A DNA stretch of 64,000 nucleotides from Bacteroidota bacterium (GTDB lineage: Bacteria; Bacteroidota; Bacteroidia; M30B66): contig JAIXYK010000063.1 of NCBI GenBank assembly GCA_027490225.1, positions 62,001 to 126,000 on the forward strand, given 5' to 3'. The position numbers were made by a program, and so were the translations under genes. How positions within the stretch are numbered: position 1 is the stretch's first letter; the number at the start of each line of letters is the position of its first letter. The notes under the pieces are model-generated. The model worked only from the letters and a program-made list of their open reading frames with translations. It made no database searches and was not told the DNA's origin. Below are positions 20,549 to 33,783 of the stretch, piece by piece.

Positions 20549-21661
20549 TTAAATCTTATTTTTCTTCTGAAACAAATCGGTTTGAATACTAATTGCTTCT
20601 GAATGAATTAGCTCGTAAATTTTCTTTATAAATTCAGGACTCAAGCCACTTGCAATGCCATTTTCTAGCTGCCTTTTTAAAATTTCTTCCCAGCGTTGCA
20701 TTTGAAGAATGGTCATATTCTTTTCAAACTTATAATTTCCAATTTGCTCAATGAAATTATTGCGGCTAATTAATGCTTGTAAAATTAAATCGTCAATAGA
20801 ATCTACACTTGCTCTCAGTTCTACCAGTTTTTGATGAAAATCAATATCAACAGCATCTGATTTTCTAATGATGATTTTATCCATCATAGATTTTAATTCA
20901 AATGGTGTAACTTGCTGTTTAGCATCACTTAAAGCAACTGAAGGATTGTTATGTGTTTCAACCATAATACCCTGAAAGTCTAGATCTAATGCCTTTTGAA
21001 CAACACCCTCAATTAATTCGGGAGTTCCGCTTATATGACTAGCATCACAAATTATTGGAATATCTGGCCTAAGTGATTTTAAATCTATCACTAATTCCCA
21101 TCTAGGTGTGTATCTATAAACTGAATTTTCAAATGATTGAAAACCCCTATGTATGGCAGCTATTCTTTTTACGCCGGCGCGCTGAATTCTTTCGATAGCG
21201 CCTAACCAAAGCGAAATATCTGGATTTATTGGATTTTTAATAAAAACAGGAATGTCTACACCTTTCAATGCATCTGCCAATTCTTGAATTGAAAATGGAT
21301 TAACAGTAGTTCTTGCGCCAATCCAAACCATATCTATTCCTGCTTTTAGGCAAGCTTCTAAATGCTCAGGCGTAGCTACTTCTGTTGCCACAGGCATTCC
21401 AAATTGCTCTTTTACCTTTTTGAGCCAATGCAATCCTTCATTTCCGGCACCTTCAAAAGCTCCTGGTCTTGAACGAGGTTTCCAAATGCCTGCACGAAAA
21501 ACATTATTGGGAAAATTTTTATGAATTCCAGCTGCTGTGAGCAAGACTTGCTCTTCGTTTTCAGCGCTGCAGGGCCCAAAAATCGTGAATGGCTTGTTCC
21601 CATCAGGAATCCATTTATCAATTTTTATAGAATTTAAAGTATTCAGAGCTAAAGCTTGCAC
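20549..21661 (-). CDS. Bifunctional DAHP synthase / chorismate mutase type II
   Basis: A 370-residue fusion. Residues about 1-265 are a class Ib DAHP synthase (IFGPCSAENEEQ, FRAGIWKPRSRPGAF, VETHNNPSVALSDAKQQ), which joins PEP and erythrose 4-phosphate at the start of the shikimate pathway. Residues about 275-360 are an AroQ-type chorismate mutase helical domain (LVELRASVDSIDDLILQAL, then RNNFIEQIGNYK), which makes prephenate. This fusion is standard in Bacteroidota. The mutase domain may also serve as the feedback sensor. It lies on the same strand as the deoxyhypusine-synthase-like gene, 39 bases after it. Confidence 0.93.
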   Translation of the reverse strand: MQALALNTLNSIKIDKWIPDGNKPFTIFGPCSAENEEQVLLTAAGIHKNFPNNVFRAGIWKPRSRPGAFEGAGNEGLHWLKKVKEQFGMPVATEVATPEHLEACLKAGIDMVWIGARTTVNPFSIQELADALKGVDIPVFIKNPINPDISLWLGAIERIQRAGVKRIAAIHRGFQSFENSVYRYTPRWELVIDLKSLRPDIPIICDASHISGTPELIEGVVQKALDLDFQGIMVETHNNPSVALSDAKQQVTPFELKSMMDKIIIRKSDAVDIDFHQKLVELRASVDSIDDLILQALISRNNFIEQIGNYKFEKNMTILQMQRWEEILKRQLENGIASGLSPEFIKKIYELIHSEAISIQTDLFQKKNKI

Positions 21662-21700
21662 ATTACAATTAACAGATGTATTGCCTTTTTGTTTTTGATT

Positions 21701-22672
21701 TTACCAACCTAATATCCAAGCAAACATCAATGGAGCAACAATAGTAGCATCTGATTCAACGATAAACTTTGGAGTTTCTTTATCTAGTTTGCCCCAAGTA
21801 ATTTTCTCGTTAGGCACAGCACCAGAATAAGAACCATAACTTGTCGTTGAATCTGAAATTTGGCAGAAATATGCCCAAAATGGTACATCATGCCATTCTA
21901 AATCCTGATACATCATTGGAACAACACAAATTGGAAAATCACCAGCTATACCTCCACCGATTTGAAAAAAGCCGACTCCTTTGCCTGAAGAATTCGCTCT
22001 GTACCAATCGGTTAACCACATCATATATTCTATGCCAGATTTCATGGTAGAAGCTTTTAACTCGCCTTTAATACAATACGAAGCAAAAATATTTCCCATT
22101 GTTGAATCTTCCCAACCTGGAACTACAATTGGAATATTTCTTTCTGCCGCGGCAATCATCCAACTATCTTTTGGGTCAATTTCATAATATTGCTCCATTT
22201 CACCTGAAAGCAACATTTTGTACATGTATTCATGTGGAAAATATCTTTCTCCTGCTTCTTCAGCATTCTTCCATTGTTTAACAATATGCTTTTGAATTCT
22301 TCTGAACGCCTCTTCTTCAGGTATACAAGTGTCAGTAACTCTATTATATCCTTCTTCCAATAAATCCCATTCATCTTGTGGACTTAAATCTCTGTAATTT
22401 GGAACCCTTTTATAATGAGAATGTGCAACCAGGTTCATAATATCTTCTTCCAAATTTGCACCTGTGCAAGAAATAATATCAACCTTACCTTGTCTTATCA
22501 TTTCTGCAAATGACTTTCCTAACTCTGCTGTACTCATCGCACCAGCAAGTGTCACCATCATTTTACCACCTTCAGTAAGGTGTTTTTCGTAACCTTTTGC
22601 GGCATCTACAAGCGCTGCTGAATTAAAATGTAAATAATGCTTTTCTATAAATTGAGAAATTGGACCTTTCAT
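21701..22672 (-). CDS. Deoxyhypusine synthase family protein
   Basis: A 323-residue protein of the deoxyhypusine/homospermidine synthase fold. The catalytic lysine of eukaryotic DHS lies in a WGK motif; here TWGKL puts it at K295, and the NAD-side motifs (VTLAGAMSTAELG, ISCTGANLEEDI, VGFFQIGGGIAGDF) are also present. Eukaryotic DHS transfers aminobutyl from spermidine to eIF5A, which bacteria lack, so this enzyme probably makes or uses a free polyamine, or modifies another target. It follows its own promoter and precedes DAHP synthase/chorismate mutase. No polyamine gene is adjacent. Length is slightly shorter than the human enzyme. Confidence 0.88.
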   Translation of the reverse strand: MKGPISQFIEKHYLHFNSAALVDAAKGYEKHLTEGGKMMVTLAGAMSTAELGKSFAEMIRQGKVDIISCTGANLEEDIMNLVAHSHYKRVPNYRDLSPQDEWDLLEEGYNRVTDTCIPEEEAFRRIQKHIVKQWKNAEEAGERYFPHEYMYKMLLSGEMEQYYEIDPKDSWMIAAAERNIPIVVPGWEDSTMGNIFASYCIKGELKASTMKSGIEYMMWLTDWYRANSSGKGVGFFQIGGGIAGDFPICVVPMMYQDLEWHDVPFWAYFCQISDSTTSYGSYSGAVPNEKITWGKLDKETPKFIVESDATIVAPLMFAWILGW

Positions 22673-22842: not shown

Positions 22843-23865
22843 ATGAAGAAATTTTTACTTGCTTTTTTTGGTGTTTTATTATTAAACATCTCATTATTTG
22901 GTCAGTGCTCTGACCTATTTATCTCAGAATATGTTGAGGGTTCTGGAAATAACAAAGCGTTAGAAATCTATAATCCAACAAATACAGCAATCAATCTCGG
23001 AAATTACAGAGTTATCCGTTGGGCAAACGGAGCTATTACTGCGCCTGATGACGGAGTGATGCCTCTTCCCGCTGCGTTAACTGTACCTTCCAAAGGCGTT
23101 ATTGTAATTGCTTTGAACCTAACAGACCCAAACGGAACCGGACAAACCGCTCCGATAGCTTTAGCACTTCAAGAAAAAGCTGACACTTTGCTTTCAAATG
23201 GTTGTGGAACTGAGCCGGGAAACATTAGAACTTTTTGCTTTAATGGTGATGATGCACTCTCTTTAGAGAAAAATGTTGGCGGTACTTGGACGAGAGTGGA
23301 CATTTTTGCATGCATAGGTGAACAACCGACTAATAGTCAAGGCACTGCCAGTCCTACTGCAGGATGGACAGACTTGGCTCCATTTTCAAGTATGCCAGAA
23401 GGTTATACAACTGCAGTTGATGGCCCTTATTTTTTCCGTTATTGGACACAAGACAAAACTTTGATTCGTAAATCAAGTGTGAATAACGGAGTTACTGTTA
23501 ATCCTCAACCAGCCTCATTTAACGCTTCTGTACAATGGGATTCTTTGGCCACAGATATGTTTGACTCATTAGGATTTCATACTTGTGTATGTAATATTGT
23601 GGGCTTTAATGATTTACCTGAATCAGAAAAATTAACAGTATACCCAAATCCTGCTAACGATAAGATTTCTATTCAATCGGAATTAGCTATTTCTTCAATT
23701 GTTATCTTCAATGTTACTGGACAAACCCTTGTAGAAATGAAGAATCCTTCTTTAACTAAAAATATTCGCATCGAAACACAAAATATTCCTCAGGGAGTTT
23801 ATTCTGTGAAATTGATTTACACAAACGGAAGTCAGGCATCACGCAAAATAATTGTTCAACATTAA
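22843..23865 (+). CDS. Lamin-tail domain T9SS protein
   Basis: A 340-residue exported protein. ATG 22843 gives a signal peptide (MKKFLLAFFGVLLLNISLFG); an in-frame TTG at 22819 would only lengthen it. The first domain has DLFISEYVEGSGNNKALEIYNPT, the lamin-tail (LTD) signature seen in many secreted bacterial proteins, often beside or fused to nucleases. The middle is a beta-rich extension ending in a Cys-Val-Cys motif near residue 248. The C-terminus is a T9SS type A domain (VYPNPANDKISI to RKIIVQH). It precedes a TonB receptor, lipoprotein and secreted endonuclease on the same strand, so a shared role at the cell surface is possible. Confidence 0.85.
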   Translation: MKKFLLAFFGVLLLNISLFGQCSDLFISEYVEGSGNNKALEIYNPTNTAINLGNYRVIRWANGAITAPDDGVMPLPAALTVPSKGVIVIALNLTDPNGTGQTAPIALALQEKADTLLSNGCGTEPGNIRTFCFNGDDALSLEKNVGGTWTRVDIFACIGEQPTNSQGTASPTAGWTDLAPFSSMPEGYTTAVDGPYFFRYWTQDKTLIRKSSVNNGVTVNPQPASFNASVQWDSLATDMFDSLGFHTCVCNIVGFNDLPESEKLTVYPNPANDKISIQSELAISSIVIFNVTGQTLVEMKNPSLTKNIRIETQNIPQGVYSVKLIYTNGSQASRKIIVQH

Positions 23866-23885
23866 AAAATACTAAAATCTATAAG

Positions 23886-23916
23886 AAGCGCTGTGAACTG
23901 CAGCGCTTTTTTGTTT
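23886..23916 (+). terminator. Strong terminator hairpin directly before the TonB receptor
   Basis: AAGCGCTG and CAGCGCTT form a perfect 8-base stem with a 7-base loop, followed by TTTTTGTTTTT. It ends a few bases before the TonB receptor start at 23921/23927. It may end the lamin-tail transcript, attenuate the operon, or both. Confidence 0.85.
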
Positions 23917-23920
23917 TTGT

Positions 23921-26656
23921 ATGCTTATGAAACATATTCTTACTCTACTCTTATTGGTTTGCACTTTTGATATTTTCGCGCAAGGAAATATTAAAGGTAA
24001 AGTTGTAGACCAAACTTCAGGTGAAACTATAATTGGAGCATCGGTGATATACGCTCCCGGCAAAGGAACTACAACAGATATTGATGGAAATTTTACACTT
24101 CCATTGCCAAATGGTGAATATACAATTGCTGTGTCCGCTACCGGTTTTAAAACCATTAGCAAACAGGTAAAACTTAATAACAATACTGTTGAATTGTCAT
24201 TTTCACTTCCATCCAATACATTACGGGAAGTAGAAGTTGTTTCAGATATTGCAATTGCAAGGGAAACGCCTGTAGCATTTAGTAATATTGACCCAAAGAA
24301 AATTCAAGAACAATTAGGTTCGCAGGATTTACCGATGATCTTAAACACAACACCTGGAGTTTATGCAACCCAGCAAGGTGGTGGTGATGGTGATGCAAGG
24401 GTAAGTATAAGAGGATTTAACTCACAAAACGTTCAAGTTTTGATTGATGGAATTCCTATGAATGATATGTTCAATGGTAGAGTATTCTGGAGTAACTGGT
24501 TTGGGCTCGATAATTTAACGTCTGGTGTACAAGTTCAACGCGGACTTGGTGCATCAAAATTATCAATTCCCGCAATTGGAGGAACAATGAACATTCTAAC
24601 CGCAGGCATTGATTCAAAAAAACAATTGAGCATTCGTCAAGAAATTGGAAATAACTTTAATGCCAGAACAGGAATTACCTACAATTCAGGTAAACTTAAA
24701 AAAGGCTGGGGCTTTAGTGCTGCAGGTTCTTTTAGAAGAAACGATGGGTATGTAGACCAACTTACTTCAAGAATGTTTTTCTATTATGTCAAGGTAGAAA
24801 AATATGTTGGTAAGCACTTATTCAGCTTTTCAGCTTTTGGTGGTCCGCAAACAACTGGACAAAGAGATTTTACTGTAGACCAGCCAATTTATACATACAG
24901 TAAAAGAATGGCAGCTTCTTTAGGTGTAGATACGGTTGGAAAAACTGAATACGGAAGACGCTACAACCCAAGCTGGAACTATGTTACAAGAAACAGAGAT
25001 AATCCAAATGCAGAAAGAGAAGTTTTTAATTCTTCTATCAATCAGTTTCATAAACCTGTGCTATCATTAAAGCATTTTGTAAATGTGAACAGCAAATTTT
25101 ATATTTCTAACATTATATATGCTTCCTATGGTATGGGCGGAGGAACAGGTCCGAATAACACAATTCCAATTGATAGCACCGGAAGACAAAATTTTCAAGC
25201 GATTTATACTTCAAACGCTACAAGCGAATTTAACATCTACCCTGGTTTTGGTCCAGATAGCTTATACAAAGGTCAAAGAAGAGCTGCAAATTTTATAAGA
25301 AAAAACTACAATGAGCACCAATGGTATGGTGCATTATCTCAATTTAAATATGAACCAAATACCCATTGGGATATCTCAGCAGGTATTGATTTAAGAACCT
25401 ATAATGGTCAGGTATTTAGCCGCGTGCATGATTTAATGGGTGCAGACCTCTGGGTTTCTTCAGCAGATCAAAATGCACCTACTAATAGTCCGGTATTTGA
25501 AGGCGATAGAATGCGACAGTTTATTGAAAGAAAAGTACGATGGACAGGAGCTTTTGCACTTGCTGAATACAAAGCAGGAAACTGGAGTGCCTTTTTGAAC
25601 GTAAGTAGTTCCGCAAGTTATTACAAGCAATACAACCATTTTGCAAAAAAAGAATTAGTGCTTGCAGATACTACTCTGCAAATTGGCTATAATGATACAA
25701 TTACATACAACGGAACATTCTACGATAGAAATACTCCTGAATTAAGAGTTAACCAAAGTGATTGGCAAACATTAATTGGATATACAGTTAAAGCTGGTGT
25801 AAACTATAACTTGACGGAGAAAATGAATGTTTTCATGAATATAGGTAATTTAAACAGGGCTCCGTTGATGCAATTTGTGCTTAGAAATGATAATAAAAAG
25901 TTTCAAGGAGTAAAAAATGAGGTAATTCGCTCAGTTGAGTTAGGCTATGGTTATCGCACTGCAAACTTTTCTGTAAACTTTAATGGATATTACACCAATT
26001 GGAAAAATAGACCTACATCTGTGTCTTTTACAGTAAACGGAGAACCAATAAGTAGTAATGCTCAAGGAATGGGAGCTTTGCACAAAGGGTTAGAGTTAGA
26101 TTTCATTTATAAAATTCATAAAAAATTAAGTTTTGAAGGCGCCATTTCTTATGGTGACTGGAAATGGAATTCAACAGCAACTGCTTTTGCAATTGATGAT
26201 GCTGGTAACGTTTCTGATACCGTAAAATTTGACCCAAGAGGTGTCAGAGTAGGAGATGCTGCACAACGCACCTATTCTACAAGCTTTAGATACGAGCCCT
26301 TTAAAAGATTCTATTTCAAACCTCAATTTACTTGGTTTACATACAATTTTGCTAATTTCTCCCCTGATGGATTGCAAATTACAGATTTGAAGAACGATTT
26401 AGGACCAAACATAGGTCGCCAATCTTGGAGAATGCCAGATTACGGAACGCTGGATTTAAACTTAGGATATGGTTTTGTATTTAATAAAGTTAAATTGGAT
26501 GCAAGGCTTACTGTTATAAATGCTTTAGATGCTTTCGGGATTACCGACGCCCAAAGCAATCAATTTGGAACTACATCTGCATTTAACGCAGCAAGTTCAA
26601 GTGTTAATTTCTTAATGGGCCGCCGTTGGTTAGGTTCTTTAACAGCTACATTTTAA
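23921..26656 (+). CDS. TonB-dependent receptor, SusC/CarboxypepD_reg type
   Basis: A 911-residue outer-membrane receptor. It has a signal peptide (to about residue 20), a carboxypeptidase-regulatory-like domain (about 22-110: GNIKGKVVDQTSGETIIGAS, ATGFKTISKQ), a plug domain (about 120-230: DLPMILNTTPGVYATQ, VSIRGFNSQNVQVLIDGIPMND), and a large beta-barrel ending in an aromatic residue (SLTATF). The TonB receptor family moves large or scarce ligands through the outer membrane using TonB energy. No SusD gene is adjacent. ATG 23921 and 23927 are both possible. It is followed 4 bases later by a lipoprotein gene and then a secreted endonuclease, so the ligand may be DNA-derived (inference). Confidence 0.88.
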   Translation: MLMKHILTLLLLVCTFDIFAQGNIKGKVVDQTSGETIIGASVIYAPGKGTTTDIDGNFTLPLPNGEYTIAVSATGFKTISKQVKLNNNTVELSFSLPSNTLREVEVVSDIAIARETPVAFSNIDPKKIQEQLGSQDLPMILNTTPGVYATQQGGGDGDARVSIRGFNSQNVQVLIDGIPMNDMFNGRVFWSNWFGLDNLTSGVQVQRGLGASKLSIPAIGGTMNILTAGIDSKKQLSIRQEIGNNFNARTGITYNSGKLKKGWGFSAAGSFRRNDGYVDQLTSRMFFYYVKVEKYVGKHLFSFSAFGGPQTTGQRDFTVDQPIYTYSKRMAASLGVDTVGKTEYGRRYNPSWNYVTRNRDNPNAEREVFNSSINQFHKPVLSLKHFVNVNSKFYISNIIYASYGMGGGTGPNNTIPIDSTGRQNFQAIYTSNATSEFNIYPGFGPDSLYKGQRRAANFIRKNYNEHQWYGALSQFKYEPNTHWDISAGIDLRTYNGQVFSRVHDLMGADLWVSSADQNAPTNSPVFEGDRMRQFIERKVRWTGAFALAEYKAGNWSAFLNVSSSASYYKQYNHFAKKELVLADTTLQIGYNDTITYNGTFYDRNTPELRVNQSDWQTLIGYTVKAGVNYNLTEKMNVFMNIGNLNRAPLMQFVLRNDNKKFQGVKNEVIRSVELGYGYRTANFSVNFNGYYTNWKNRPTSVSFTVNGEPISSNAQGMGALHKGLELDFIYKIHKKLSFEGAISYGDWKWNSTATAFAIDDAGNVSDTVKFDPRGVRVGDAAQRTYSTSFRYEPFKRFYFKPQFTWFTYNFANFSPDGLQITDLKNDLGPNIGRQSWRMPDYGTLDLNLGYGFVFNKVKLDARLTVINALDAFGITDAQSNQFGTTSAFNAASSSVNFLMGRRWLGSLTATF

Positions 26657-26660
26657 TTAT

Positions 26661-27110
26661 ATGAAAAAGATCATTTTATTTTTTTCTCTTCTAAGCCTTC
26701 TTTATGCTTGCAGCAAAGAACAAAATACTGCAGATAAATTAGCGGGAAAATGGCAAATTTCTTCTTTAAAGTGGGCTAATGGCAATCCTATTGATGTTAC
26801 AAATGACATCCATAGTATTGAATTTTTAAGCTGCGACAAAGCTTATACAGCATCTTGCACAGGAATATACTTCTTAGATTATGCAGATACACTGAAGAAA
26901 GATTTAAACGACACATTCAAATTCGAACTAAAGGGTGATGAAATCTCTATTTCAAGTGTAAAAAATTCAGCTCCAGGTAATACATTTGTTACTAAAATTT
27001 TAAGGCAGCGCTACATTTTTGAAAACAAAAGCGATAACAATTTTGAATTAAAAAGATTTAGGACATTTGCTGATAGCTCAAATGGAATAATTAACGCAAC
27101 CAAACAATAA
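26661..27110 (+). CDS. Lipocalin-like lipoprotein
   Basis: A 149-residue predicted lipoprotein. The signal peptide ends in LLYAC, which makes Cys17 the lipidated residue. The mature part starts with a KLAGKWQISSLKW strand, the Gly-x-Trp start of lipocalin-like folds, and continues as alternating beta strands. The family includes small-ligand binders on the outer membrane of Bacteroidota, but this protein's ligand is unknown. It lies 4 bases after the TonB receptor and 22 bases before the endonuclease, so all three are one operon. Confidence 0.75.
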   Translation: MKKIILFFSLLSLLYACSKEQNTADKLAGKWQISSLKWANGNPIDVTNDIHSIEFLSCDKAYTASCTGIYFLDYADTLKKDLNDTFKFELKGDEISISSVKNSAPGNTFVTKILRQRYIFENKSDNNFELKRFRTFADSSNGIINATKQ

Positions 27111-27132
27111 AGAAAAACAACAACTCAAAAAC

Positions 27133-29439
27133 ATGAAGAAATTTCTATTATCAATTGTAACCTTTGCTGCTAGCTTAGCTGCATACGGTCAAAGCCCTGT
27201 TCCAGCATCATGGGATTGCGGAGACATTGGAACATTGCCCACTGGTTGGTCTTATAATAATGCATTTGGTGCTTCAAATAATTATTCCGGACCAACCTCC
27301 TGCGATGAAGTTATTTGTTTAAGACTAGATGCAACAGATGATGCATTAACCATTTTTTTTGGTCAACAGCCGGGAGCTATTTCTTATCAAATAGGCACCA
27401 CTGCAACTACTGCTTGGCAAGGAACCTTGGTCCTCGAAGAATCTGTTGATGGTGCTTCATGGAGTAATATTCATACATATGCAAATGGAGATATTCCAGC
27501 TAGTAGCAATGGTTGTTTAAGTGAAACATATACTCCTGCAAATTCAGCTTCAAGATATATTCGATTTTTGTTTCAAGAAAAAATTTCAGGTTATAACCTA
27601 AAACTAGATGAGATAAGTATTGAAGCGCCAGTTATTGAAGGGGCAACAATTCGTTTAACTGATGCGGCGAATGCAACCATTCTTGATGGCGCTGTTGCAG
27701 CACCGTTCAATTCTACAAGCGTTACATATAATATATTAAATGATGGAACTATTGGCTCACTGGATGTTTCTGCAATTACCTTATCAGGTGCAAATCAAAA
27801 CGCTTTTGCAATTACATCTCCCGCATTACCAATTAGTATTGCACCAGGTGCATCTGTCCCGTTGGTAATAACTTTTACCGCAAATAATGGAGCAGGCTCT
27901 TATATTGCAGACGTTACGATTGCAAGTAACGATGCAGTTAATTCTGCTTATAACTTCTCGATATATGGTATCGATGGATTGTTGGCTTCTCAACCAAGTA
28001 ATGAAATAACTGCCGGTTCGGCGACAGGACAAGATTTAAAAACGTATCGTTTAATTTATAATTTTGAAGGAACAATCCTAAATGAAGACCCATTAGGAGG
28101 TTATTTAGTGCTAAGAAGCGAAAATGGCCCAGTTTCTACGGCTCCAACAGATGGAACAACTTACCTTAGAGGTCAGTCTATAGGAAACGCTAAAGTTGTT
28201 TTTGCAGGTAGACCAGATAACGATTCACCAGCAATAAGAACTAATTGGGTACAAGCCAATAAAACATACAATTTTGCTGTATTTTCTTATGGTGGAAGTG
28301 GAGCATTTACTAATTACACCAATCAAATTAATAATGTGGCTTTAACAACCCCAAATACAGAGGTTTCTCCTTCTGAATATGCTGGCATTTCTACCTCTAA
28401 TCCAACATTTGTAACCGACTTACATAACCTGATTAATCCTCACACTTCAATTTTCTACAGTAACTATGCATCAATTATGATGAATCTATTTGTTGTAAGA
28501 GATACGTTTGTAACCGGGGGTGTAACTTTTGATAAAGTAATAAATTGTTCTTATAGCGGCGAAGCTAAATTATATAATAACCCATTCGACTGGACAGCAA
28601 CTGGATATAGTCGTGAACATACCTATCCGCATAGCTGGATGCCAAGTTTCCCTGCTGATAACCCAGAAAAACCTGAATACAATGATTACCATAATCTTTA
28701 CCCAACAAGACAAGTAAATGTTAACGACTTACGCTGCAACTATCCGTTCGGAGAAGTTGTAACAGTTGAAACAGGCTGGCCGGTAGTTAATCCTCAAGGA
28801 TTTATTGGTTTAGATGCAAATGGAAATCGTGTATATGAACCAAGAGACGAGCATAAAGGTCGCGCAGCACGCTCATTAATGTACATGGCAGTTTGCTATA
28901 CAGAAGGCGCAAATGTTTTTAGTTTTAATAGACCCAATGGTCAACAATGTTTGAATTTCCAGATTGATTACCCTCAAAATCAGTATTTGATGAAGCAATG
29001 GCATTTTGAACACCCTCCAACAGGTTGGGACATTGCTCGTAATGACTTTTTAGATTCATTACAAGGAAACAGAAATCCATTTGTTGATCAACCTGATTAT
29101 GCATGTTTTATTGATTTTTCTAATCTTACAAAGATTGCAACACCATCAACTCCTTGCTGGTTAGATGAAACTGGTTTTGAAACCATCCAAAACATGAACT
29201 TAAATGTTTATCCAAATCCATCTCAAGGTAATATCCGTGTTTCTTGGGCAGGTGTTTCTGACCAATTAACTATGGATGTATACGATATTAGCGGTAAAAT
29301 GGTAGATTCAAGAAAAGTGAATGCTACAAATGGAGTTAATATTCAAGATATTCAATTCAACTTACCAGTTGGAATGTATATGTTAAGATTAAATGGAACA
29401 AAATCTTCTGCTGTTCAGAGATTGATAATATCCGAATAA
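27133..29439 (+). CDS. T9SS-secreted endonuclease I with choice-of-anchor domain
   Basis: A 768-residue exported nuclease. After a signal peptide (to about residue 20, YGQS) the first part (about 25-175) is a beta-sandwich; residues about 180-285 resemble a choice-of-anchor D domain (ILNDGTIGSLDVSAITLSG). Next is the endonuclease I (PF04231) domain (about 440-680): YSREHTYPHSW, YHNLYPTRQVNVNDL, RDEHKGRAARSLMYMAVCY, and WDIARNDFLDSLQGNRNPF. This HNH-like fold cuts DNA and RNA without sequence choice. The C-terminus is a T9SS type A domain (VYPNPSQGNIRV to VQRLIISE). It closes the receptor-lipoprotein-nuclease operon. Confidence 0.9.
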   Translation: MKKFLLSIVTFAASLAAYGQSPVPASWDCGDIGTLPTGWSYNNAFGASNNYSGPTSCDEVICLRLDATDDALTIFFGQQPGAISYQIGTTATTAWQGTLVLEESVDGASWSNIHTYANGDIPASSNGCLSETYTPANSASRYIRFLFQEKISGYNLKLDEISIEAPVIEGATIRLTDAANATILDGAVAAPFNSTSVTYNILNDGTIGSLDVSAITLSGANQNAFAITSPALPISIAPGASVPLVITFTANNGAGSYIADVTIASNDAVNSAYNFSIYGIDGLLASQPSNEITAGSATGQDLKTYRLIYNFEGTILNEDPLGGYLVLRSENGPVSTAPTDGTTYLRGQSIGNAKVVFAGRPDNDSPAIRTNWVQANKTYNFAVFSYGGSGAFTNYTNQINNVALTTPNTEVSPSEYAGISTSNPTFVTDLHNLINPHTSIFYSNYASIMMNLFVVRDTFVTGGVTFDKVINCSYSGEAKLYNNPFDWTATGYSREHTYPHSWMPSFPADNPEKPEYNDYHNLYPTRQVNVNDLRCNYPFGEVVTVETGWPVVNPQGFIGLDANGNRVYEPRDEHKGRAARSLMYMAVCYTEGANVFSFNRPNGQQCLNFQIDYPQNQYLMKQWHFEHPPTGWDIARNDFLDSLQGNRNPFVDQPDYACFIDFSNLTKIATPSTPCWLDETGFETIQNMNLNVYPNPSQGNIRVSWAGVSDQLTMDVYDISGKMVDSRKVNATNGVNIQDIQFNLPVGMYMLRLNGTKSSAVQRLIISE

Positions 29440-29462
29440 GACTTAAATAATAAAGTAAATTG

Positions 29463-29497
29463 AAAGCAGCCAGTTTAAAGATTGGCTGCTTTTTTTA
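29463..29497 (+). terminator. Terminator after the endonuclease gene, shared with the convergent repressor
   Basis: AGCAGCCA and TGGCTGCT pair with a 10-base loop and a T run. The run touches the stop codon of the minus-strand XRE/S24 gene, so it may serve both. Confidence 0.8.
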
Positions 29498-30298
29498 TGC
29501 TTTTTCTTTAAAAGTATTCTTTAACCTATTTACATCTCTTTGCAATTGCATAACTGTATTTGAAAGTTCAGAACGACTTAAATTTGGTTCAGGAATTTCA
29601 GAGCTGATATAATGAGTAAATTTCCATATCTCTAAAATATCTTTTACTGCAATTTCATACGGTTCATACGCTGGATTGGTAGAACACAACAATAAGGTTC
29701 CGTTTTCTTCTAACTGGTTATACAACATCTTAAACACAATGCCATCATCTTTAGTAATGACTATATATGGATTTCCGTTTCTAATAAAACTCCAATTCTG
29801 GAGATATTCACCTGTTACCCAAGATCCATCTGGAACCGGTGGCATAGAATCTCCAATTATTGGAAAAGTACGGTACTTCTTATTGGGCGACAAAAAGGGC
29901 ATTTGAAAAGTTGGCAAAACCTTTATGTAATCGGGATCAGAATACCCAGAAGTATAACCAGCTCTTGCTTTAATTGGAACCAATTCAACATTCTCATTGT
30001 TTTGGGAATCCACTGTTGTAGCAATGATTCTCAAATGATTTCCGCTAATATCAGTCTCATTTTTAGATTGAACAGCACTCCACTCCTCTTTTGAATGTTG
30101 CGCCAAATCAAGTTTTATTAATGCATCAATTGAAACTTGATAATAGTTAGAAAGTCTTATAAGATTCTCGCTCCCAGGTTCTGCAGAACCATTTTCATAA
30201 CCACTTAAAGTTGTTCTTTTTATTCCTAAGTCAGAAGCCACTTCTTCTTGAGATTTTGTGCTATTTTTACGAAGAAATTTAAGGTTTGAAGCAATCAT
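29495..30298 (-). CDS. XRE family repressor with S24 (LexA-like) domain
   Basis: A 267-residue transcription factor. The N-terminal helix-turn-helix (about 3-60) has SQEEVASDLGIKRTTLSGYENG. The C-terminal half is a peptidase S24 domain with IIGDSMPP (nucleophile Ser151) and VFKMLYN (Lys190). A possible self-cleavage site is Ala113-Gly114 in KARAGYTSGY. LexA/CI-type repressors of this build are inactivated by cleavage on DNA damage. A coiled-coil-like C-terminus (RDVNRLKNTFKEKA) follows. Its promoter overlaps a palindrome that may be its own operator. It sits between the nuclease operon and a divergent subtilase gene; which genes it controls is unknown. No phage genes are visible near it. Confidence 0.88.
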   Translation of the reverse strand: MIASNLKFLRKNSTKSQEEVASDLGIKRTTLSGYENGSAEPGSENLIRLSNYYQVSIDALIKLDLAQHSKEEWSAVQSKNETDISGNHLRIIATTVDSQNNENVELVPIKARAGYTSGYSDPDYIKVLPTFQMPFLSPNKKYRTFPIIGDSMPPVPDGSWVTGEYLQNWSFIRNGNPYIVITKDDGIVFKMLYNQLEENGTLLLCSTNPAYEPYEIAVKDILEIWKFTHYISSEIPEPNLSRSELSNTVMQLQRDVNRLKNTFKEKA

Positions 30299-30314
30299 AA
30301 AGACGTATTTTTTG

Positions 30315-30332
30315 TCAAATATATAAATTTGA
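30315..30332. promoter_or_regulatory. Palindrome overlapping the repressor promoter
   Basis: TCAAAT-ATATAA-ATTTGA is a palindrome with perfect 6-base arms. It overlaps the TATATTTG -7 box of the XRE/S24 gene on the minus strand, so it may be an autoregulatory operator (inference). Confidence 0.5.
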
Positions 30333-30347
30333 TTTAAATTATGTCAA
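30316..30347 (-). promoter_or_regulatory. Promoter of the XRE/S24 repressor
   Basis: On the minus strand TTG (30345-30347) and TATATTTG (30316-30323) are 21 bases apart, with a leader of about 12 bases to ATG 30298. Confidence 0.6.
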
Positions 30348-30356
30348 GCTGCCGAT

Positions 30357-30364
30357 TAATTTTG
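30357..30364 (+). promoter_or_regulatory. Possible -7 box of the subtilase gene
   Basis: TAATTTTG fits TAnnTTTG; the nearest TTG upstream (30329-30331) is 25 bases away, longer than usual. It is divergent from the repressor promoter. Confidence 0.4.
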
Positions 30365-30411
30365 AAGCATTTTTTATTTCAACTTTCTTCAAACATCTTT
30401 GTTAAAAAATT

Positions 30412-33180
30412 ATGAAAGTATTAATTACGATAATTTTAAGCTGTTTCTTTCTCTTAAGTAAAGATTCATGCGCTCAAAAAATTGTTACCTCAAAAGAATT
30501 TAAAGATGATTATGTAGGTGGTGTATTGTTCGTGAAACTGAAATCAGAGTTAAGAAACACTGCATCCATAACCAACATAAATTCAACAATCTTTAACAAT
30601 GCTATTTCGTCTTTCAATTTAATTTCAATTCAGAAAGCATTCCCCAATATTAAACCTCCTGAAAAATCAAAAAACGTAAGAGGTGAAAAATTAGCAGACC
30701 TTTCATTAATCTTTAAACTTACATTCCCTGAAAATACTGATATGTTAGCTGTTAAAGAGCAACTTTTAAAGTCCAAAACTTGCGAATATGTAGTTCCTCA
30801 GTTTGTACCTCGATTATGTTATGTTCCAAATGATGATAGCATTTCTAAGCAATATGCTTTGTTTAAAATTAATGCTTTCGCAGGTTGGGATGTCAGTAAA
30901 GGAGATACGAATATGGTTATTGGTGTAACTGATACTGGGATTGACCCTTTTCATCCTGATATTATTGGAAACATAAAATATAATTACGCTGACCCAATTA
31001 ATGGGATAGATGATGACAATGATGGCTTTATTGATAATTACAGAGGTTGGGATACAGGTGCCGACGATAATGACCCAACTGCCGATAATAATTTTCATGG
31101 TCAACATGTTTCAGGACTATCTTCTGCAACACCAAATAACAGTGAGGGAATCGCAGGTTCTGGCTATTTCTGCAAACTGCTTCCTATAAAAATTGCTAAT
31201 CAAAACGGTTCTTTGGTAGGGGCTTATGATGGCTTAATATACGCTGCCGAGCATGGTTGCAAAGTAATCAATTGTAGTTGGGGTGGATTTGAATACAGCG
31301 AATTGAATGAGGATCTGATCAGATATGCGGCTATCAACAAAGATTGTATAATTTTTTGCGGCGCAGGCAACAACAATGATGAAAGGCTGTTTTATCCTGC
31401 ATCTTACGAATATGCTGTTTCGGTTGGAGCAACTAATGAACAAGATTTTAAAGCAGATTTTTCAACTTATGGTTACCTACTAGATTTGTTTGCCCCCGGA
31501 GATTTAGTTTTATCTACTTGGGCAAATGGCGAATATTTAAGAACCGGTGGAACTTCTATGGCAGCTCCTGTAGCTGCAGGTTGTGCTGGAATTCTTAGAA
31601 GTGCATTTCCTACTTGGTCAAGTCAACAAATTACAGAACAGTTAAAAGTAACATGCGATTTGATAGACCAAATTCCACAAAACGCAGAATATGCTGGAAA
31701 AATGGGAAAAGGAAGAGTAAATCTCTTCAGAGCTCTAACAGAAACAGGAAAGCCATCAGTAATTTTTAACGATAAAAGACTAACCGATAACGGATCTCAA
31801 CTTTTTCTACCAGGCTCTCTGGTGCAATTGAATGGTTTAATGATCAACTATCTTTCATTTGCAAATAACGTAACTGTTTCAGTAAGTTCATTAACTCCAG
31901 CATTTGAAGTAATAACACCCGGTTTTAACTTTTCAAACTTTGGAACGCTCGACACACTTCCTGTTGTTGGAAGCGCAATACTATTAAGAGTGAATGAAAA
32001 TGCGACTTTTAATGAACAAGGAATCATTAAAATAAGCATTAACGCCGATGGGCAAATAAATGATGAATACATCTTTGCCAAGGTGAATGCGAATTTCATC
32101 AACATAAATACAACTGCAATAAAAACATCTATCGGAAATAACAGCCAAATTGGTTTATATGGTGATGGATTTTTAAAAGGGAATGGCTATCAGTTTAATA
32201 ACCATTCTGATTTATTGTATGAAGGAGGTTTGATGATTGGAGCTGAAACATACAGAGTAGCAGACAATATAAGAGGTGAAGTAAGAGGAGAAGTTGACGA
32301 AGACTTTTTTACAGATATTCCTTTGCGATTAAAAAATAGTATTGTATCAGTATCTGAATATGATGGTCAATTTTATTCATCTAAAGAAATAAGTGTAGTT
32401 GTTAAACAAAGACTTATCTCTGATTCCGCAGGAGAAAAAAAGAATTTCTTTGTTCTTGAATACGACATTTCCAATTACTCAAACGAGACTTATTTTGGAA
32501 TGTTTGCCGGCATTTTTACTGATTGGGATTTAATAAATCCATCAGAAAATGAAAGCGGTGTTATTACTTCTCAAAAAATCGGGTACGTTAATTCAGGTGA
32601 TTCACTATTCTGCGCTGTAAAAGTTTTGAATGATGGCCCAGCCTTGTTCAATGTAATGCGAAATGGAGGAGCTACAATAGAAGGTGTTTTTATTAACGAT
32701 GGGATTTCTTCATTTGAAAAGTATTTGGCACTTTCAACTAACAACCAACTTGTTACAGAACCCGTTGGAGATATTGTAAATGTTGTTTCTACTGGACCAT
32801 TCAATTTAAATCCTGGTGAGCATAAAGTCCTTTCATTTGCAGTAATTAGCGCCACAAACTTTAACGAACTTGGGCAATTAGGAGCCTCGGCTCAACAATT
32901 CTACAATCAAACAGTTATTCCGCTTTCACTGCCAATAGAAGATTTACAAATAGGTATTTTTCCAAACCCTGCAAATGAATTGGTAAACATCTCAGCAGAT
33001 AATTCGTTTGGTGAATATAATGTAACCATGCTGGATCTTATGGGCAAAGTTGTAAAGTCATTTTCAGGTCAAAACAAACTCTTGAAAATACCGACTCTAG
33101 ATTTAAAATCAGGTTTGTACATAGTAAAAATAGAGTCAAAAGAACACAATAAAGCATACACAATTAGTATTCAGCATTAA
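30412..33180 (+). CDS. T9SS-secreted S8 subtilisin-like peptidase
   Basis: A 922-residue exported serine protease. It has a signal peptide (to about residue 22), an N-terminal propeptide-like region (about 25-140), and the S8 domain (about 155-440) with Asp174 in VTDTGIDPFHP, His229 in HGQHVSG, and Ser382 in GGTSMAAP. A large beta-rich region follows (about 450-830), and the C-terminus is a T9SS type A domain (IFPNPANELVNIS to YTISIQH). It probably digests proteins outside the cell or matures other surface proteins. It starts about 110 bases from the divergent XRE/S24 repressor, which may regulate it. The full catalytic triad argues for activity. Confidence 0.92.
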   Translation: MKVLITIILSCFFLLSKDSCAQKIVTSKEFKDDYVGGVLFVKLKSELRNTASITNINSTIFNNAISSFNLISIQKAFPNIKPPEKSKNVRGEKLADLSLIFKLTFPENTDMLAVKEQLLKSKTCEYVVPQFVPRLCYVPNDDSISKQYALFKINAFAGWDVSKGDTNMVIGVTDTGIDPFHPDIIGNIKYNYADPINGIDDDNDGFIDNYRGWDTGADDNDPTADNNFHGQHVSGLSSATPNNSEGIAGSGYFCKLLPIKIANQNGSLVGAYDGLIYAAEHGCKVINCSWGGFEYSELNEDLIRYAAINKDCIIFCGAGNNNDERLFYPASYEYAVSVGATNEQDFKADFSTYGYLLDLFAPGDLVLSTWANGEYLRTGGTSMAAPVAAGCAGILRSAFPTWSSQQITEQLKVTCDLIDQIPQNAEYAGKMGKGRVNLFRALTETGKPSVIFNDKRLTDNGSQLFLPGSLVQLNGLMINYLSFANNVTVSVSSLTPAFEVITPGFNFSNFGTLDTLPVVGSAILLRVNENATFNEQGIIKISINADGQINDEYIFAKVNANFININTTAIKTSIGNNSQIGLYGDGFLKGNGYQFNNHSDLLYEGGLMIGAETYRVADNIRGEVRGEVDEDFFTDIPLRLKNSIVSVSEYDGQFYSSKEISVVVKQRLISDSAGEKKNFFVLEYDISNYSNETYFGMFAGIFTDWDLINPSENESGVITSQKIGYVNSGDSLFCAVKVLNDGPALFNVMRNGGATIEGVFINDGISSFEKYLALSTNNQLVTEPVGDIVNVVSTGPFNLNPGEHKVLSFAVISATNFNELGQLGASAQQFYNQTVIPLSLPIEDLQIGIFPNPANELVNISADNSFGEYNVTMLDLMGKVVKSFSGQNKLLKIPTLDLKSGLYIVKIESKEHNKAYTISIQH

Positions 33181-33246
33181 ACGTTTTCACAAATCAATTT
33201 GCTAACACGCGTTTTTAAATTAGGTTTGTAGCAACAATTTAAAATT

Positions 33247-33783
33247 ATGGATTTAAGAGGAATTATTTCAGTTTCAGGATTAAGCGGCTTGCACAAAGTT
33301 GTAGCGCAAACTAAAAACGGTTTGCTTGTAGAATCGCTCATCGACGGTAAAAGACAACCAATTTATAATAGCCACAAAGTAAGCTCTTTAGATGACATTA
33401 GTATTTATGGGACTTCTGAAGACATCCCGTTGAAAGAAATTTTAAAAACCATCAAAGACAAACTTGAAAGCAAACCAGCTGAAGATTATAAAGAAAATAG
33501 TGATGGCGCTAAAAAAGCTTTCGCGGAATTAGTGCCACAGCATGATGCTGACAGGGTATATGTTTCTGATATGAAAAAAGTATTTTTTTGGTATAACTTA
33601 TTGTTAGCCAAAGATCTTTTAAATGATACACCAGAAACTGAGCAGGAAGGAGATACAACAAAAGCTGAAGTTCCTGTGGCTAAAACAACATCTGTTAAAG
33701 TAAAAGATACGCCTAAGTCTGCGCCTAAAGCATCTTCTAAAGGAATGGCAAAAACACAAACTGTGCGCAAAACCGGAGGATAA
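33247..33783 (+). CDS. DUF5606 family protein
   Basis: A 178-residue cytoplasmic protein typical of Bacteroidota (DUF5606). The start MDLRGIISVSGLSGLHKVVAQ is distinctive. The conserved part covers about residues 1-120, ending with YVSDMKKVFFWYNLL. The last 50 residues are a Lys/Ala/Thr-rich tail that may be disordered or bind nucleic acid (inference). Function is unknown. It lies 13 bases before the M3 peptidase gene, which suggests cotranscription. Confidence 0.85.
   Translation: MDLRGIISVSGLSGLHKVVAQTKNGLLVESLIDGKRQPIYNSHKVSSLDDISIYGTSEDIPLKEILKTIKDKLESKPAEDYKENSDGAKKAFAELVPQHDADRVYVSDMKKVFFWYNLLLAKDLLNDTPETEQEGDTTKAEVPVAKTTSVKVKDTPKSAPKASSKGMAKTQTVRKTGG

Follow-up and report, generated by a model that had tools for sequence, protein, structure and literature searches.

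SusCD polysaccharide loci (PULs) combine a secreted depolymerase, a surface protein and a TonB-dependent outer-membrane channel, and the products are finished in the periplasm. The PUS clusters of Flavobacterium (PMC8115612) bring together a TonB-dependent receptor (TBDR), in some cases with a lipoprotein, and enzymes that act on phosphorus compounds; the same organism has nucleases with lamin-tail (LTD) and endonuclease I (EndI) domains, which are induced by phosphate depletion (PMC8115612). Izemoplasmatales have loci for the degradation of DNA as food (PMC8289736), in which genes for extracellular nucleases and phosphohydrolases are clustered with those for transporters and an LTD protein. 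Shewanella ExeM (PMC6085458) has an LTD joined to a nuclease and an OB-fold module. Bacteroidota themselves have been reported as important degraders of DNA in sediments (PMC8289736), where the genus Lutibacter took up label from DNA, and in sludge, from which secreted nucleases of the phylum have been reported (PMC11495043). We found no account in the open-licence literature of how DNA products cross the Bacteroidota outer membrane.

We report here a locus from a member of the Bacteroidota (contig JAIXYK010000063.1; “the window” denotes the whole stretch of 64,000 nucleotides analysed) in which a TBDR is encoded together with an LTD protein and an EndI nuclease. The locus follows the general plan of a PUL, but has no SusD, its receptor is far under the SusC cut-off, a nuclease and nucleotidase stand in for the glycan enzymes, and a T9SS-exported LTD protein would be the surface partner. 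The PUS clusters differ in that phosphatases and phosphodiesterases accompany SusCD-type complexes or other TBDRs, and the EndA nucleases of that organism are recorded as orphan genes, not adjacent to a receptor (PMC8115612). Izemoplasmatales have no outer membrane, TBDR or T9SS and use ABC transporters; the operon in the window has no ABC importer and a TBDR instead, and is thus not of the Izemoplasmatales type. ExeM is a single polypeptide with an EEP nuclease, and no receptor is described in the same gene set. The nuclease encoded here belongs to the catalytic family of Endonuclease I/Vvn (PF04231; PDB 1oup) and keeps its E-H-N residues, but whereas Vvn and EndA, at ~210 aa, are small and periplasmic, it has 768 aa, extra modules and predicted T9SS export. 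A description of a receptor-nuclease-LTD locus was not found among open-licence papers, in which the PUS clusters and the Izemoplasmatales loci come nearest to it.

Results

Organisation of the locus

Four genes, all on the + strand, lie in the order LTD-T9SS, TBDR, lipoprotein, EndI-T9SS (Table 1). The gene coordinates confirm the original prediction that the last three share one strand with gaps of 4 and 22 bases. The span it gave, 23886-29439, holds for these genes, but its first base falls within the hairpin at 23883-23911, and the LTD gene, correctly recognised as the gene before, was left outside the span although it belongs to the system. An alternative start for the receptor is found at 23927. 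The hairpin 3' of the nuclease gene is the operon end.

Table 1. Genes and hairpins of the locus, numbered from the first base of the window.
Feature	Position	Strand	Basis	Place in locus
LTD-T9SS protein gene	22843..23865	+	Pfam LTD and Por_Secre_tail	core member of locus
Terminator-like hairpin	23883..23911	+	13 pairs and T-rich tail	LTD-receptor junction
TonB-dependent receptor (TBDR), 911 aa	23921..26656	+	Pfam CarbopepD_reg_2 and Plug	
Lipocalin-like lipoprotein, 149 aa	26661..27110	+	lipobox LYAC, C17	accessory
Endonuclease I (EndI)-T9SS protein, 768 aa	27133..29439	+	Pfam Endonuclease_1 and Por_Secre_tail	
Terminator-like hairpin 3' of nuclease gene	29462..29493	+	14 pairs and T tail	

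Deoxyhypusine-synthase-like and DAHP-synthase-like genes (window 20549-22672) precede the locus, as they do throughout its family and in some further families (L094); this flank is old synteny. On the other side (window 29495-33783) are an XRE/S24 repressor-like gene, a subtilase with a T9SS tail and a gene for a 178-aa protein, an order kept 3' of the locus in other genomes of the same family.

The encoded proteins

The LTD protein (340 aa) comprises a signal peptide, a lamin-tail (Ig-like) domain and a T9SS type A sorting domain. Its description as a lamin-tail T9SS protein is borne out by Pfam matches to LTD (PF00932, E 2.1e-11, over the cut-off) and Por_Secre_tail (E 1.5e-12), and its predicted model (pLDDT 86.3) matches lamin Ig domains and T9SS C-terminal domains. 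The model also matches the DUF4876 protein BT_1938 of Bacteroides thetaiotaomicron (4q1z), which is possibly a gut counterpart of the LTD partner.

The receptor has a plug domain (Pfam PF07715, E 5.5e-17) and belongs to a receptor clade linked to LTD and nuclease genes. Against the SusC/RagA model TIGR04056 it scores 88.7 bits, where the cut-off is 368, and it is thus not SusC-type; neither the lipoprotein nor the LTD protein has a SusD match, in keeping with the absence of SusD that had been claimed. Curated families and solved structures gave no ligand for the receptor. The original prediction had named membership of a clade with a known non-nucleic-acid ligand as one point on which it could fall, and no clade of known ligand was found.

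The lipoprotein scores under the cut-offs of the Pfam lipocalin profiles (PF16585, 19.8 against 27.2 bits; PF13648, 19.2 against 22.4 bits), but its predicted model (mean pLDDT 86.5) resembles lipocalin-like structures, with a TM-score to 4qrl of 0.69 by target and 0.53 by query. The earlier label “lipocalin-like” therefore finds its support in the model and not in the profiles, and the fold is possibly of this type. Because the protein is restricted to its own family and a few near lineages, occurring in 11 of 100 clade loci, it is a lineage-specific, local accessory. The idea that it is a core SusD analogue was rejected as a general one on this same count.

In the EndI protein, an N-terminal module and an Ig-like middle part are followed by the Endonuclease_1 domain (~489-654) and a T9SS sorting domain (692-766). 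The Endonuclease_1 match (PF04231, E 3.6e-29, 102.6 bits against a cut-off of 25) and the Por_Secre_tail agree with its identification as a T9SS-secreted endonuclease I, and it is the product of the one Endonuclease_1 gene in its genome. Alignment with 24 relatives and Vvn shows that the catalytic Glu-His pair (E495 and H496) and the metal-binding N531 are kept; their EndA/Vvn counterparts are E79, H80 and N127 (PMC5305256, PMC5758888). The PDB alignment spans the Asn; for the Glu-His pair the correspondence comes from the motif, which reads REH here and EWEH in EndA. These residues suggest that the protein is an active nuclease. The genome encodes the T9SS protein SprA, and with a Por_Secre_tail on each, both the LTD protein and the nuclease are predicted T9SS cargo. 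Weak EndI matches in some Bacteroidales are true Endonuclease_1 domains, which in those scanned are N-terminal and not central.

Conservation of the linkage

The receptor was first seen next to a nuclease in many families in searches of 60 relatives. A receptor alignment was then used to scan genome contigs; it matched more than 590 stretches, and we retained the 80 best, each with flanking sequence of up to 10 kb. These 80 loci were selected by receptor similarity and not by their neighbours; a mild bias comes in with the 21 seed receptors, which were collected through hits to the receptor, the nuclease and the lipoprotein. A simple script predicted the genes in the loci, and profiles made for this analysis served to label them. 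Among the 100 clade loci in all, the LTD gene precedes the receptor gene, on its strand, in 95 of the 98 that could be judged, and a nuclease is present in the cluster in 84 of the 90 not cut by a contig end. The named carriers are Flavobacteriales, Bacteroidales, Chitinophagales, Saprospirales, Marinilabiliales and Sphingobacteriales. This conservation excludes chance as the origin of the arrangement. The neighbourhood that the original prediction had expected is thus present as LTD, receptor and nuclease in the same order across orders, but does not generally extend to the lipoprotein.

The reverse search, which used the LTD protein alone, matched 37 of 149 genomes in an even draw from the class (23 of 99 genera). 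When 20 of these LTD-anchored loci were inspected, 18 had a clade receptor immediately downstream, and the two exceptions encode longer LTD proteins of other build; a nuclease was found within the next genes in 13 of 16 judgeable loci. A few of these genomes are also present in the receptor-anchored set. A profile search of 198 genomes of the phylum scored only four candidates per genome, and its count is low and not a prevalence.

Outside the clade the picture changes. Six sister receptors just outside it, a position they also hold on the tree, have no LTD or nuclease neighbours, and two more distant receptors elsewhere in the phylum likewise lack both immediately next door. Within the clade, a linked nuclease is missing from six judgeable loci, consistently so in one genus (G021, G256 and G287); G021 and G036 carry a nuclease elsewhere in the genome.

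Several individual loci depart from the common form. An LTD-receptor pair without a linked nuclease is seen in L097, L198 and L205 (one genus), and the L097 genome has a nuclease on another contig. In L147, L153 and L163 the order is PLD nuclease, LTD, receptor and not LTD, receptor, nuclease. L135 (4055-19377) is a richer nuclease island: besides LTD and receptor it encodes three EndI proteins, of which one also has an Exo_endo_phos domain. L103 (1442-8864) may show a second receptor-nuclease arrangement, unrelated to the first: there, genes for another kind of TonB receptor, an outer-membrane-like protein and an NHL-repeat lipoprotein precede an EndI-T9SS gene. L181 (CP034120, 'Glaciecola amylolytica' THG-3.7) is a complete chromosome with a gammaproteobacterial name on which the entire locus is found, T9SS tails included; as in Crocinitomicaceae records, a gene for a ~720-aa protein lies upstream on the opposite strand. 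The genome is probably that of a misnamed member of the Bacteroidota; failing that, a large transfer would explain it.

The LTD-receptor junction

The hairpin at the junction ends ~10 bases 5' of the receptor start codon. This leaves hardly any room for a separate promoter, and receptor transcripts therefore probably read through the hairpin. We considered whether the LTD gene, with a hairpin between, is an unrelated neighbour; its place before the receptor in nearly every judgeable locus led us to reject this, and the gene is a core member of the locus. Terminator-like hairpins are found in 33 of 68 LTD-receptor gaps (shuffles give 0.5), compared with 2 of 34 gaps between the receptor and the next gene; among other co-directional gaps of comparable length the figure is 10 of 82. 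Because the hairpins are enriched at this position, the LTD protein is probably expressed above the receptor and nuclease, or its transcript is processed apart from theirs.

Exchange of the nuclease and linked nucleotidases

In 30 loci the cluster encodes an enzyme of PLD type, a fold unrelated to EndI; two HKD-like motifs are joined in it to an OB-like N-terminal domain (DUF5689), and a T9SS tail is usually present. A quick maximum-likelihood tree of 106 receptors, in which some forks are weak, has the state changing between EndI and PLD at least 12 times (cautiously ~10, as two loci with both enzymes were scored as PLD), while LTD and receptor stay. This repeated swap of fold with the same expected activity is the strongest argument for nucleic-acid cutting as the shared theme. 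The genes beside the Bacteroidales PLD loci (mfd, glycosyltransferase and dihydroorotase) were judged to be old synteny.

A split 5'-nucleotidase follows the locus in 16 of 100 cases, mostly in Crocinitomicaceae and related Flavobacteriales, including Brumimicrobium oceani C305 (L122), where LTD, TBDR, EndI and 5'-nucleotidase make up a single operon; one partner of the pair is a 5_nucleotid_C lipoprotein, the other a Metallophos protein whose signal is of RR type. In the genome of the window the split pair is unlinked to the locus, and a CNT nucleoside transporter and deoC are also encoded. Judged by their signals, the nuclease would act outside the cell and the nucleotidase in the periplasm, so that nucleotides or short oligonucleotides would have to pass through the outer membrane, for which the operon encodes no channel other than the receptor. 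Since nuclease folds are swapped and periplasmic-type 5'-nucleotidases are linked, nucleic acid is supported as the substrate class, which is fixed much better than by one locus.

Discussion

We consider it probable that these genes form a SusD-less nucleic-acid utilisation locus built around a TBDR, with cutting outside the cell, import by the receptor and finishing in the periplasm and at the inner membrane. EndI, exported by the T9SS, would cut extracellular DNA (and possibly RNA) to oligonucleotides. The LTD protein, also a predicted T9SS export, would keep the substrate or the nuclease close to the receptor, a role like that of SusD and surface glycan-binding proteins with glycans. The receptor, energised by TonB, would then carry oligonucleotides or nucleotides into the periplasm, where a 5'-nucleotidase (encoded elsewhere in this genome and in the same operon in relatives) would release phosphate and nucleosides. 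The CNT transporter could import the nucleosides, a route suggested by the genes present. The lipocalin-like lipoprotein would be a lineage-specific accessory beside the receptor, and a leaky terminator may set LTD expression above that of receptor and nuclease. The original prediction of a system that cuts extracellular DNA and takes up the products is thus supported; from the linkage and the logic of the compartments we infer that the receptor is what imports them. More broadly, we lean towards the view that a widespread class of TBDR imports nucleic-acid fragments together with a secreted lamin-tail protein and interchangeable EndI or PLD nucleases, a nucleic-acid counterpart of the PULs.

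We take the LTD protein to be the surface partner, and a helper or docking role would fit it, since removal of the LTD from ExeM, where it is fused to the nuclease, slows the enzyme but does not stop its activity (PMC6085458). EndA1 and EndA2 of F. johnsoniae hold LTD and EndI domains (PMC8115612). In L126 (12759-15848) the product of the third gene combines EndI with an LTD domain that scores below threshold.

Several points count against a nucleic-acid utilisation locus: we know of no TBDR shown to bind or move pieces of nucleic acid, six judgeable loci are without a linked nuclease, and the 5'-nucleotidase is linked in only 16 of 100. The nucleases of F. johnsoniae, too, appear as orphan genes (PMC8115612), so not every such nuclease needs a receptor beside it. 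An alternative is phosphate scavenging with phosphate as the sole gain: DNA would be stripped outside the cell by the nuclease together with surface phosphatases, and the receptor, as in PUS clusters, would import some other phosphorus compound. Both EndA1/EndA2 and the TBDR-plus-lipoprotein clusters are induced by phosphate depletion (PMC8115612), but the phosphohydrolases linked here are 5'-nucleotidases with periplasmic-type signals, which need nucleotides in the periplasm, and PhoBR, Pst and alkaline phosphatase were not identified among the named flanking genes of the inspected loci. We therefore regard this alternative as unlikely.

It is also quite unlikely, we suggest, that the locus clears extracellular DNA without uptake, in biofilm remodelling, escape from DNA nets or predation, with a receptor of unrelated ligand and a linkage that is historical. 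Secreted nucleases do act in this way elsewhere, as ExeM does with biofilm (PMC6085458), and the nuclease is missing from some clade loci; against this, the linkage survives across many families and repeated exchange of the nuclease fold, nucleotidases are linked, and the sister receptors have no nuclease beside them.

The ligand of the receptor could in principle be a cofactor or signal tied to use of the nuclease, such as a metal chelate, and not a nucleic-acid product. Siderophores, vitamins and glycans are the usual TBDR ligands. However, none of the genes identified beside the inspected loci is for uptake of metals, siderophores or vitamins, and the constant features of these loci are the nuclease, the LTD protein and in part the nucleotidase; this reading is very improbable. 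DNA uptake for natural transformation would suit the likely substrate class, DNA, but is scarcely credible, given that genetic information would not survive a secreted non-specific endonuclease and 5'-nucleotidases and that competence genes were not identified in the loci.

Read as a nucleic-acid utilisation locus, the arrangement would be a widespread and apparently undescribed system that degrades extracellular DNA and takes in the fragments. Large amounts of phosphorus, nitrogen and carbon are present in DNA, and the receptors described here offer a candidate transporter clade for the passage of its products across the outer membrane. An LTD gene beside a receptor of this clade is a genetic marker for DNA-eating Bacteroidota, Brumimicrobium oceani is a cultured host that carries the locus, and the prokaryotic lamin-tail proteins gain a testable role.
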